From Crocinitomicaceae bacterium (GTDB lineage Bacteria > Bacteroidota > Bacteroidia > Flavobacteriales_D > Crocinitomicaceae), in NCBI GenBank assembly GCA_020436025.1, contig JAGQYP010000009.1, positions 1 through 64,000 on the forward strand: a stretch of 64,000 bases of DNA, read 5' to 3'. Shown one piece after another: positions 30,874 through 41,103 of the stretch. Each line of letters opens with the position of its first letter. The stretch's first letter is position 1. The position numbers and the translations under genes were made by a program. The notes under the pieces were generated by a model that saw only the letters and a list, made by a program, of their open reading frames with translations, was not told the DNA's origin and did no database searches.

Positions 30874-30940
30874 AAAATTAGGCACAAAAAAAGAGCGAAG
30901 ACTCATTCTCCGCTCTCATTCTCATTCTGTGTTGACCCAC
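30874..30940. repeat. Direct repeat, copy 2 (functional tRNA-Gln terminator and 3' end)
   Basis: Second copy of the repeat at 30744; contains the intact terminator and runs 9 nt into the tRNA gene. Confidence 0.8.
30885..30916 (-). terminator. Terminator of tRNA-Gln
   Basis: Read on the minus strand: stem AGAGCGGAGA / TCTTCGCTCT, loop ATGAG, followed by seven T. Confidence 0.85.
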
Positions 30941-31004
30941 TAGGGCTCGAACCTAGACTCTTCTGAACCAAAATCAGACGTGTTGCCAGTTACACCATGG
31001 GTCA
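30932..31004 (-). tRNA. tRNA-Gln (TTG anticodon)
   Basis: 73 nt without encoded CCA. Acceptor stem TGACCCA / TGGGTCA, anticodon stem TCTGA / TCAGA with loop TTTTGGT and anticodon TTG (bases 30969-30971), T arm CTAGG-TTCGAGC-CCTAG, and discriminator A. Preceded on the minus strand by the palindrome ATTGCGCAAT. Confidence 0.95.
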
Positions 31005-36515: not shown

Positions 36516-36547
36516 TTTTGCAGATCAGAAAAAATGTAGTACATTTG
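36516..36547 (+). promoter_or_regulatory. Promoter of rimP-nusA-infB
   Basis: TTTTG at 36516-36520, 19-nt spacer, TACATTTG at 36540-36547: full consensus. It begins 2 nt after the cyclase stop codon. The predicted start is near 36552. Confidence 0.8.
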
Positions 36548-36567
36548 CAGTGAAAATATTTAATAGT

Positions 36568-36592
36568 GAGGGGACGCGAGTCCCCTCTTTTT
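36568..36592 (+). terminator. Leader hairpin before rimP (terminator or attenuator)
   Basis: Perfect 8-bp stem GAGGGGAC / GTCCCCTC closed by a GCGA (GNRA) tetraloop, then five T. It lies between the promoter and the rimP ATG, about 15 nt after the predicted transcription start. Confidence 0.8.
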
Positions 36593-36602
36593 ATAGCCTA
36601 AA

Positions 36603-37079
36603 ATGATTGCAAAAGAGAAAGTAAGAGAGCTTGCTGAACAAAGGATTCAAGAATTGGAAAAGCCTTTGTATATCGTAGATATTACGATTTCTAGTGCAAA
36701 TCATATTTTGGTTGAATTGGACAATGAAGTGGAGCCTGTTTCGATTGAAGATTGTGTGTCGGTTTCACGTAACATTGAACACAATTTAGACAGAGAAGTG
36801 GAAGACTTTCAGTTGGAAGTTTCCTCTGCCGGATTAGATAAACCTTTGAGAAACTACAGACAATTTAAAAAAAATGTGGGTAGAGAGTTAAAGGTAAAGC
36901 TTGCTGATCAAGGAAAAATTGAAGGAAAATTGATTGAAGCTGACGAAAGCCAGATCACGTTAGAAACTGAAAAGAGAGAACGTGTTGAAGGTAAAAAGAA
37001 GAAATTAAAAGTTTTAGAAAATATTGTTTTGCCGTACGATAAAATCGGTGAAGCGAAAGTGGTAATATCATTTAAATAA
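36603..37079 (+). CDS. rimP: Ribosome maturation factor RimP
   Basis: 158 residues. N-terminal domain with VSIEDCVSVSRNIEHNLDREVEDFQLEVSSAGLDKPL, where the E-V-SS-G-x-xxPL signature is diagnostic, and a C-terminal SH3-like domain (VGRELKVKLADQG, EGKLIEADESQITLE). Assists assembly of the 30S subunit. First gene of the conserved rimP-nusA-infB operon, 6 nt before nusA. Confidence 0.95.
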   Translation: MIAKEKVRELAEQRIQELEKPLYIVDITISSANHILVELDNEVEPVSIEDCVSVSRNIEHNLDREVEDFQLEVSSAGLDKPLRNYRQFKKNVGRELKVKLADQGKIEGKLIEADESQITLETEKRERVEGKKKKLKVLENIVLPYDKIGEAKVVISFK

Positions 37080-37085
37080 ACAAAA

Positions 37086-38321
37086 ATGAACAGTTTAGAT
37101 CTTATTGAATCGTTTTCGGAATTCAAAGAGTTTAAGAACATCGACAGAGAAACGATGATGAACATTATTGAGGATGTTTTCAGATCGATGTTAAAGAAAA
37201 GATATGGAACAGATGATCATATTGATATCGTAATCAATATTGATAAAGGAGATTTGGAGATTTGGGTTAACAGAGAAATCGTTCCTGACGGAGAGGTTGA
37301 GGATCCAAATATTGAAATTTCTTATTCTGATGCTATTAAAATTGAACCAGATTTTGAAATCGGTGAAGAAGTGTCGGAGCAAATCTATTTCGAGGATTTC
37401 GGAAGAAGAAATATTTTATCACTAAGACAAAACTTGATCTCAAGAATTCTTGAGTTAGAGAAAGATCATATTTATAAGAAATATAGAGAAAGAATCGGAG
37501 AGATTGTTGCTGGTGAAGTATATCAAGTTTGGAAAAAAGAAATCATGGTTTTGGATGATGAAGGAAATGAATTGATTCTTCCAAAATCAGAGCAAATTCC
37601 TTCAGACTACTTCAAAAAAGGAGAAACTGTAAGAGCAGTTGTTTCTAAAGTAGACATGAGAAACTCCAATCCAGTGATTATTCTTTCTAGAACGGCTCCT
37701 GAATTCCTAGAAAGATTGTTCGAATTGGAAGTTCCTGAAGTATTTGACGGATTGATTACAATTAAGAAGATTGTTAGAGAGCCAGGTGAAAGAGCAAAAG
37801 TTGCTGTAGAATCCTATGACGATAGAATTGATCCAGTTGGAGCTTGTGTCGGAATGAAAGGAGCTAGAATTCACGGAATTGTTCGTGAGTTAAGAAACGA
37901 AAACATTGATGTAATCAACTACACTGCCAATCCACAATTATTCATCCAAAGGGCCTTGTCACCAGCTAAAATTTCTTCTATAGAAATTCACGAAGACGAA
38001 AGCAGAGCGGATGTATTCCTAAAACCGGATCAGGTATCTCTTGCCATTGGTAAAGGAGGTCACAATATCAAACTTGCAGGAAAACTTACAGGTTACGAAT
38101 TAGATGTCTACAGAGAAGGAGCAGAGGATATTGATGATGTAGATTTAGAAGAATTTGCAGATGAAATCGATGGATGGATTCTTGACGAATTAAAAGCTAT
38201 CGGTTGTGATACAGCAAAATCAGTTTTAGAGTTGAATATTGAGGATCTAGAAAAAAGAACAGACCTCGAGAGAGAGACGATTGAAGAAGTGATGAAGATC
38301 TTTAAAGCTGAATTTGAATAA
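37086..38321 (+). CDS. nusA: Transcription elongation/termination factor NusA
   Basis: 411 residues. N-terminal RNA polymerase-binding domain (1-~130), S1 domain (VAGEVYQVWKKEIMVLDDEGNELILPK), then two KH domains: the first around REPGERAKVAVESYDDRIDPVGACVGMKG, the second with LAIGKGGHNIKLAGKLTGYELD, and one short C-terminal helical repeat (ILDELKAIGCDTAKSVLEL). Modulates pausing, termination and antitermination. In Escherichia coli NusA feeds back on its own operon. Confidence 0.96.
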   Translation: MNSLDLIESFSEFKEFKNIDRETMMNIIEDVFRSMLKKRYGTDDHIDIVINIDKGDLEIWVNREIVPDGEVEDPNIEISYSDAIKIEPDFEIGEEVSEQIYFEDFGRRNILSLRQNLISRILELEKDHIYKKYRERIGEIVAGEVYQVWKKEIMVLDDEGNELILPKSEQIPSDYFKKGETVRAVVSKVDMRNSNPVIILSRTAPEFLERLFELEVPEVFDGLITIKKIVREPGERAKVAVESYDDRIDPVGACVGMKGARIHGIVRELRNENIDVINYTANPQLFIQRALSPAKISSIEIHEDESRADVFLKPDQVSLAIGKGGHNIKLAGKLTGYELDVYREGAEDIDDVDLEEFADEIDGWILDELKAIGCDTAKSVLELNIEDLEKRTDLERETIEEVMKIFKAEFE

Positions 38322-38372: not shown

Positions 38373-41042
38373 ATGGCAGAAAAAGTAAAAAGACTAAGTA
38401 AAGTTGCACGAGAATTGAACGTGGGAATTTCTACAATTGTGGAGTTCCTATCAAGTAAAAATGTAAATATCGAATCGAGTCCGAATACCAAGATCGAACC
38501 TGATGTTTATGATTTACTCTTGAATGAATTTGGTGCAGACCTTTCAGTAAAAGAAAAGGCGAAAGCAACCGTTATCAAAAGGGAAAAGAGAGAAACGATT
38601 TCCTTAAAAGATAGCAAAGATGAAGAAGAGAGTGATGACGAGGACGTAGAAGAGGTAGAGGTTGAATCTGTAAAAGAAGAGCCCGCTAAAGTGACTCAAG
38701 TCGAGGAGGATGTTAAGCCTAAGGTTCAAGTTATTGGTAAGATTGATTTGGATTCAATCAACCAGAAAACTCGTCCTGAAAAGAAAAAAGAGGAGCCTGT
38801 CACTCCGAAAGAAGAGCCTGTAAAAGAGGAGCCAGTTAAAGAAGAAAAGCCTGTTGTTCAAGAAACAAAAACTGAAGAAACTCCAAAAAAAGAAGAGGAA
38901 GATGTTGAGACCATTAAAGTTCAAACTAAAAAACTTAGCGGTCCCACAGTTGTAGGAAAAATTGAATTACCTGCCGAAAGAGAAAGATCAAAGCCTTCTT
39001 CTTCTGATGATGATTCTGCTGATGGAAAACGCAAAAGAAAGCGCATCAAAAAGGTGAATGTTGAAAAACAAGCCAAATTCAATAAGCAGAATCCACCAAA
39101 ACAACAAGGAGGTAAGAAGAAAATAGAAAAAGCTGAGGTTTCGGAAGCCGATATTCAGAAGGAAGTAAAAGAAACTCTTGCAAGATTGAGTGGTCAGGGT
39201 GGAAAATCCAAGGCGGCAAAATTAAGAAGAGAAAAAAGAGAATCAATTGCTGCCAAGAAGGAAGAAGAATTAATGAAAGCGGAAGCTGAAAAGAATATTC
39301 TGAAACTTTCTGAATTTGTTACGGTTTCGGAATTAGCCTCCATGATGAGTGTTTCACCAACTGAGGTAATTTCAACTCTGATGTCCATTGGAATTTTTGC
39401 TTCGATCAACCAAAGATTGGATGCAGAAACCATCACAATGGTAGCGGAAGATTATGGTTATGCAACTGAATTTGTTTCGGCTGAAGTTCAGGAATCTATT
39501 CCAGTTGTGGAAGACCAAGAAGATGAATTGAAACCAAGACCGCCAATTGTAACGGTGATGGGGCACGTTGACCATGGTAAAACTTCCCTTTTGGATTATG
39601 TTCGAAACGCAGATGTAACTTCTGGAGAAGCAGGAGGGATTACTCAGCATATTGGGGCATATCAAGTGAAGTTGAAAGATGGAAATGTCATTACGTTCTT
39701 AGATACTCCAGGTCACGAAGCGTTTACAGCGATGAGAGCCCGTGGAGCTAATGTTACGGATGTTGCAATCATCATTATTGCAGCAGATGACAATGTCATG
39801 CCTCAAACCAAAGAAGCGATTTCTCACGCCCAAGCTGCAGGAGTACCAATGGTATTCGCGATTAATAAAATTGATGTGGCAGGAGCAAATCCTGATCGTA
39901 TTAGAGAAGAATTATCTACCATGAATATTTTGGTAGAAGATTGGGGAGGAAAATACCAATGTCAGGAGATTTCAGCTAAAAAAGGTACCGGAGTAGATGA
40001 GTTATTGGAAAAGGTCTTACTTGAAGCAGAAATGCTAGATCTTAAGGCAAATCCAGATAAGAATGCTCTTGGAACTGTAATCGAATCTTCCTTGGATAAG
40101 GGGCGTGGTTATGTGACCACTGTTTTGGTGGAAGCTGGAACATTGAGAGTTGGAGATATCATTCTTGCAGGTAGATTTTACGGAAAAGTAAAAGCCATGC
40201 AAGATGAGAGAGGAAAACGAATTAAAGAAGTGGGACCTTCAGGACCGGTTTCGATACTTGGTTTGAATGGATCACCTTCTGCTGGTGATAAGTTCCACAT
40301 TTTTGATGATGAGAAAGAAGCCAAAACAATTGCAAATAAACGTGAACAACTGTTTAGAGAGCAAGGTCTAAGAACTCAAAAGCACATTACGCTTGATGAA
40401 ATTGGTAGACGTCTGGCAATTGGTGACTTCCAGGAATTGAATGTTATCGTAAAAGGTGACGTGGATGGTTCTGTAGAAGCACTTTCTGATTCCTTATTGA
40501 AATTATCAACAGATCAAATCCAAGTGAATATAGTTCACAAAGGGGTAGGTCAGATTTCAGAATCAGATGTATTGCTTGCAACGGCTTCTGACGCGATTAT
40601 AATTGGATTCCAGGTAAGACCTTCGGCTTCGGCTAGAAAGTTGGCTGAGAACGAAGAAATCGATATCAGAATGTATTCTGTAATTTATAAAGCAATCGAA
40701 GAAATTAAATCGGCAATGGAAGGAATGTTGTCTCCGGATATTGAAGAAAAAATTACGGGATCTGCTGAAATTAGAGAAACATTTAAAATTTCTAAGGTTG
40801 GAACAATTGCCGGATGTTTTGTTACAGAAGGAAATATCAATAGAAACTCAAATGTCCGTATCATTCGAGATGGTATTGTAATCTACACTGGAGAACTTGG
40901 TTCATTGAAACGTTTCAAAGATGACGTGAAAGAGGTGAAACACGGGTATGAATGTGGATTGAACATTGATAAATTCAACGATATTAAAGTTGGTGACGTT
41001 GTAGAAGCCTTCGAAGAAGTAGAAGTTGAAAAGAAACTTTAG
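38373..41042 (+). CDS. infB: Translation initiation factor IF-2
   Basis: 889 residues. The N-terminal IF2N motif ([20 protein letters not shown]) is followed by a long Lys/Glu/Pro low-complexity region to ~300 and a second IF2N-like segment ([14 protein letters not shown]). The GTPase starts at 397 with GHVDHGKT (397-404), then DTPGHEAF and NKIDV. Beta-barrel domains II and IV and the fMet-tRNA-binding C-terminus complete the protein. Delivers fMet-tRNA to the 30S subunit. Ends the operon; a strong terminator follows. Confidence 0.97.
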
Positions 41043-41078
41043 AATGCAAAATTAAAAGTTCAAAATTCAAAATAATAG

Positions 41079-41103
41079 AGCCTCCTTTTCGGAGGCTTTT
41101 TTT
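41079..41103 (+). terminator. Terminator of rimP-nusA-infB
   Basis: Stem AGCCTCC / GGAGGCT, loop TTTTC, then T-run. Confidence 0.92.

Follow-up and report, generated by a model that had tools for sequence, protein, structure and literature searches.

The most ubiquitous of the predicted transcription attenuators is the rimP-leader, for which NusA has been put forward as the best regulator candidate (Naville and Gautheret 2010, PMC2965389). In B. subtilis, leader termination stimulated by NusA autoregulates NusA (Mondal et al. 2016, as cited in a 2025 review, PMC12288461), and in E. coli the operon's transcripts go up when mutation reduces NusA-dependent termination (PMC6511841). Closer to the genome considered here, a 2021 study of F. 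psychrophilum describes a structured element 5' of rimP that is conserved in other Flavobacteriaceae genera and has no Rfam match (PMC9723704). A rimP-leader attenuator and a structured rimP 5' element in Flavobacteriaceae are already known (PMC2965389, PMC9723704); what we add is the anatomy of the element in a member of the Crocinitomicaceae, its linkage to a promoter, a control comparison with operon-end terminators and a phylum-wide survey.

Within the 64,000 nucleotide stretch of DNA that was analyzed, which we call the window, Pfam matches and sequence place a hairpin in the leader of a rimP-nusA-infB operon (Table 1). Direct reading agrees with the original prediction: there is a promoter of Bacteroidota type, TTTTG-N19-TACATTTG, ending at 36547 with a spacer of 19 nt, and a hairpin, GAGGGGAC-GCGA-GTCCCCTC, that has a perfect 8-bp stem and a GCGA loop and is followed by TTTTT (36588-36592) and then by rimP, whose start codon lies 15 nt beyond the hairpin. 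The same prediction had emphasized the GNRA class of the loop, which proves incidental: loop sequence varies across the family, only 26 of 59 family loops are GNRA, and we reject the tetraloop as a functional motif. Because the F. psychrophilum promoter box covers -12 to -5 (PMC9723704), transcription of the operon is predicted to start near 36552, which would give a leader of ~51 nt.

Table 1. Features of the rimP-nusA-infB locus, with positions in the window
Feature	Position	Strand	Basis
-33 element TTTTG of rimP promoter	36516..36520	+	read directly from sequence
-7 element TACATTTG of rimP promoter	36540..36547	+	read directly; TAnnTTTG conserved in family
Predicted terminator hairpin GAGGGGAC-GCGA-GUCCCCUC	36568..36587	+	sequence, terminator scan, fold, 59/59 family conservation, covariation
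U tract UUUUUAU, broken after five U	36588..36594	+	sequence; UUUUUnU family pattern
rimP	36603..37079	+	Pfam RimP_N and RimP C-terminal domain; ATG at 36603
nusA (N-terminal, S1 and KH domains)	37086..38321	+	Pfam
infB (IF2)	38373..41042	+	Pfam
Operon-end terminator (control)	41077..41099	+	terminator scan, comparison with relatives

A terminator scan of 14 kb ranked the leader site first of 15, with 8.3 +/- 3.0 sites expected. Folding gave -15.7 kcal/mol for the stem of the leader hairpin alone and, for an 86-nt leader segment, z = -4.1 relative to dinucleotide shuffles. The minimum-energy fold of 36545-36630 also contains a long outer pairing, which we do not regard as real because it pairs bases lying 5' of the probable start of transcription. 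In the 3.6-Mb genome the hairpin has no second copy, even with up to 3 mismatches permitted. A covariance model built from relatives scored the leader site of this genome at 47.6 bits and the next genomic site at 26.7, and its top match was the rimP leader site in every genome with rimP. The strong secondary model matches that we examined, in relatives and in this genome, lie no more than ~65 nt beyond ORF stops and resemble ordinary terminators; control of other genes by the same element was rejected on these grounds. An Rfam scan of the leader, at the gathering threshold and at E up to 10, matched no relevant family, and by that scan no Rfam family covers the element.

The leader shares with the published rimP-leader (PMC2965389) a G-rich 5' arm, a C-rich 3' arm and a U tract immediately ahead of rimP in the rimP-nusA-infB operon, as well as a sequence-conserved stem, the lack of a visible antiterminator and NusA as the proposed regulator. 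Its 15-nt distance to the gene falls within the 4-130 nt described for the hairpin and U stretch of the rimP-leader. Set against the consensus stem GGGc(...)gCCC published for Firmicutes and Gammaproteobacteria, the stem GAGGGGAC(...)GUCCCCUC retains the GGG(...)CCC core and lacks the adjacent c-g pair (GGGGAC), and other families of the phylum have other stems, in some cases with a C-rich 5' arm; the main text of that paper does not mention Bacteroidetes. The nusA-operon leader of B. subtilis likewise carries an intrinsic terminator whose read-through controls the operon (PMC12288461), but at about 180 nt (PMC2965389) it is much longer than the leader of about 51 nt here, and its NusA dependence is reported from depletion (PMC12288461), whereas that of the Crocinitomicaceae leader is inferred. 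In E. coli the metY-rimP leader carries a GGGC-UUUAG-GCCC-like hairpin and U7 a short way ahead of rimP, and differs in having tandem terminators 3' of a tRNA gene and several promoters (PMC6511841; NC_000913). The F. psychrophilum element shares its place before rimP, its structure and its lack of an Rfam match with the one described here and is very probably the same element, the main text of that report giving neither its sequence nor a mechanism (PMC9723704).

Lack of the leader hairpin in close relatives had been named beforehand as a result that would refute the original prediction; the outcome supports it, for the hairpin was present 5' of rimP in all 59 genomes in which RimP was found among a family sample of 60 (the 60th, with no rimP match, is possibly an incomplete assembly). 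The family alignment gives close to 2 bits at each stem column, with the loop-closing pair lower, whereas the flanks mostly carry 0.1-0.9 bits. Stem bases remain paired in 99.2% of cells, two pairs show compensatory changes, and the covariation score of the stem was reached by 0 of 500 shuffles, evidence that must be tempered by the invariance of most stem pairs. The U tract is present in every genome and its form UUUUUnU is kept across the family. A TAnnTTTG box stands 16-30 nt 5' of the hairpin in 58 of the 59 genomes, compared with 2.2% of background 60-nt tiles, and TTG occurs in the -33 region of 51 of the 58 leaders having this -7 box. The promoter, the hairpin, its U tract and rimP thus form a unit that is conserved in the family.

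The terminators that follow infB in these genomes provide the contrast, for their stems are unrelated even between two genomes of one genus. Over the final 8 nt of the 3' arm, leaders share a mean pairwise identity of 97%, compared with 34% for operon-end terminators. Leaders also have a shorter first U run (mean 5.1 versus 6.4; Mann-Whitney p about 1e-6, a value rendered optimistic by relatedness among the 59 leader and 16 operon-end sequences compared).

Beyond the family, we surveyed the regions 5' of rimP at 70 loci from 31 further families. A scan of the contig collection with a single RimP protein yielded only 3 loci. The automatic scan of the 70 loci placed a hairpin and U tract before rimP at 66 of them and in 30 of the 31 families; of 210 dinucleotide shuffles, 35 gave such a site. 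A hairpin is visible by eye at the four loci it missed (L101, L102, L079, L127), as is the leader hairpin at a few loci (e.g. L103, L129) where the automatic pick was not the leader hairpin itself. Stems differ between families (GAGGGGAC, GAAGGGAACG, AAGUGGGG, UCGCCC, AUAGCCCG); a structure that stays in place while its stem sequence is replaced is what a functional terminator would show. Several families outside the class of the window (loci L064-L133) have stems that open with the C-rich arm (UCGCCC...GGGCGA, AUAGCCCG...CGGGCUAU), opposite to the published G-first order of the rimP-leader. At two loci of other families (L126, L130) two tandem hairpin-plus-U sites precede rimP, comparable to the tandem terminators of Gammaproteobacteria.

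We consider it very likely that the leader feature is a promoter-proximal transcription attenuator, and likely, with somewhat less assurance, that NusA is its regulator. The original prediction had proposed attenuation with autoregulation by NusA; the conserved unit supports it, and attenuation with NusA feedback agrees with what has been published on the rimP-leader and on B. subtilis NusA (PMC2965389, PMC12288461), NusA being the probable regulator here. From the observed anatomy and conservation we infer partial termination and, with it, control by NusA. RNA polymerase would start near 36552 and transcribe about 16 nt of unstructured A/U-rich leader, followed by the strong hairpin and the interrupted U tract, where a fraction of polymerases would stop, releasing a roughly 40-nt RNA, and the others would continue into rimP-nusA-infB. 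The choice between stopping and continuing would be set by a factor, most likely NusA, which would stabilize the hairpin and raise termination such that high NusA lowers transcription of its own operon. We found no antiterminator helix competing with the leader hairpin (its 5' arm and the leader form no more than 2 GC pairs), and because no helix competes with the terminator, regulation, if any, would be by a factor. The NusA-dependent terminators described in B. subtilis are typically marked by a weak hairpin or an interrupted U tract. Of the traits considered here, a U tract broken after five U and a strong hairpin, only the former fits: the conserved early interruption is in keeping with a NusA-sensitive terminator, and hairpin strength adds nothing to the fit.

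The near-invariant stem of the family exceeds what a terminator alone needs, and NusA acting on hairpins generally does not explain it. The attenuator might instead be set by another operon product or by the state of the ribosome, for example through RimP or IF2 binding the GAGGGGA/UCCCCUC stem, and we judge this distinctly unlikely. We know of no RimP or IF2 binding to such a stem. The near-identity of leader 3' arms, set beside the divergence of operon-end arms, does suggest sequence recognition, and RimP was itself raised as an alternative to NusA by Naville and Gautheret (PMC2965389); on the other hand, stems are replaced wholesale in other families of the phylum, and any fixed recognition sequence would need to change along with them. 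Such concerted change is the substance of a further proposal, which we consider unlikely: that a sequence-specific reader, the KH domains of NusA or another operon protein, recognizes the nearly invariant GAGGGGA/UCCCCUC stem of this family, reader and stem having co-evolved to other sequences elsewhere in the phylum. Were it true, the leader would be a clade-specific protein-RNA switch and not a generic NusA-sensitive terminator.

Attenuation by a leader terminator is also to be weighed against a hairpin that serves as a 5' mRNA stabilizer or translational element with an incidental U tract. The hairpin ends 10-16 nt before the start of the rimP match in 55 of the 59 family genomes, near the place of an initiating ribosome, but a few genomes have a wider gap between it and the start codon (about 40 nt in L055 and L017), the U tract is retained in every family genome, and a stabilizer has no need of U5; we hold this account to be very improbable. 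Marginally less probable still is the idea that the hairpin terminates the upstream gene, here a cyclase, or acts as a roadblock to upstream read-through. The cyclase does run in the direction of rimP and ends 53 nt 5' of the hairpin, but the promoter sits between the two, and at 24 of 62 loci (an approximate count, from mechanical ORF calls) the longest ORF 5' of the hairpin occupies the other strand and the hairpin is kept. A hairpin that stays in place beside an ORF facing away is not the terminator of that upstream gene; these divergent neighbors largely refute that alternative, which the original prediction had already thought the poorer fit. Chance, by which about 8 terminator-like sites are expected in 14 kb, is refuted by conservation of the hairpin in the family and across the phylum, and the probability of a hairpin without a role is practically nil.

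If the attenuation reading with NusA is correct, NusA feedback through a leader terminator extends across the whole phylum of this genome, in which the sigma factor, the promoter and the signals for starting translation are unlike their E. coli and B. subtilis counterparts, and the 51-nt leader offers a compact test case. The unusual conservation of stem sequence within the family raises the question of what reads the stem and why it is frozen.

Two observations concern the neighborhood. The putative cyclase gene (PF04199, 35768-36514) overlaps a polysaccharide deacetylase gene by 4 nt, and several relatives carry a same-strand ORF of similar length at its position. Elsewhere in the window, within 30891-31004, a minus-strand tRNA gene (Rfam tRNA, 62.5 bits) is directly followed on the same strand by a strong hairpin resembling an intrinsic terminator.
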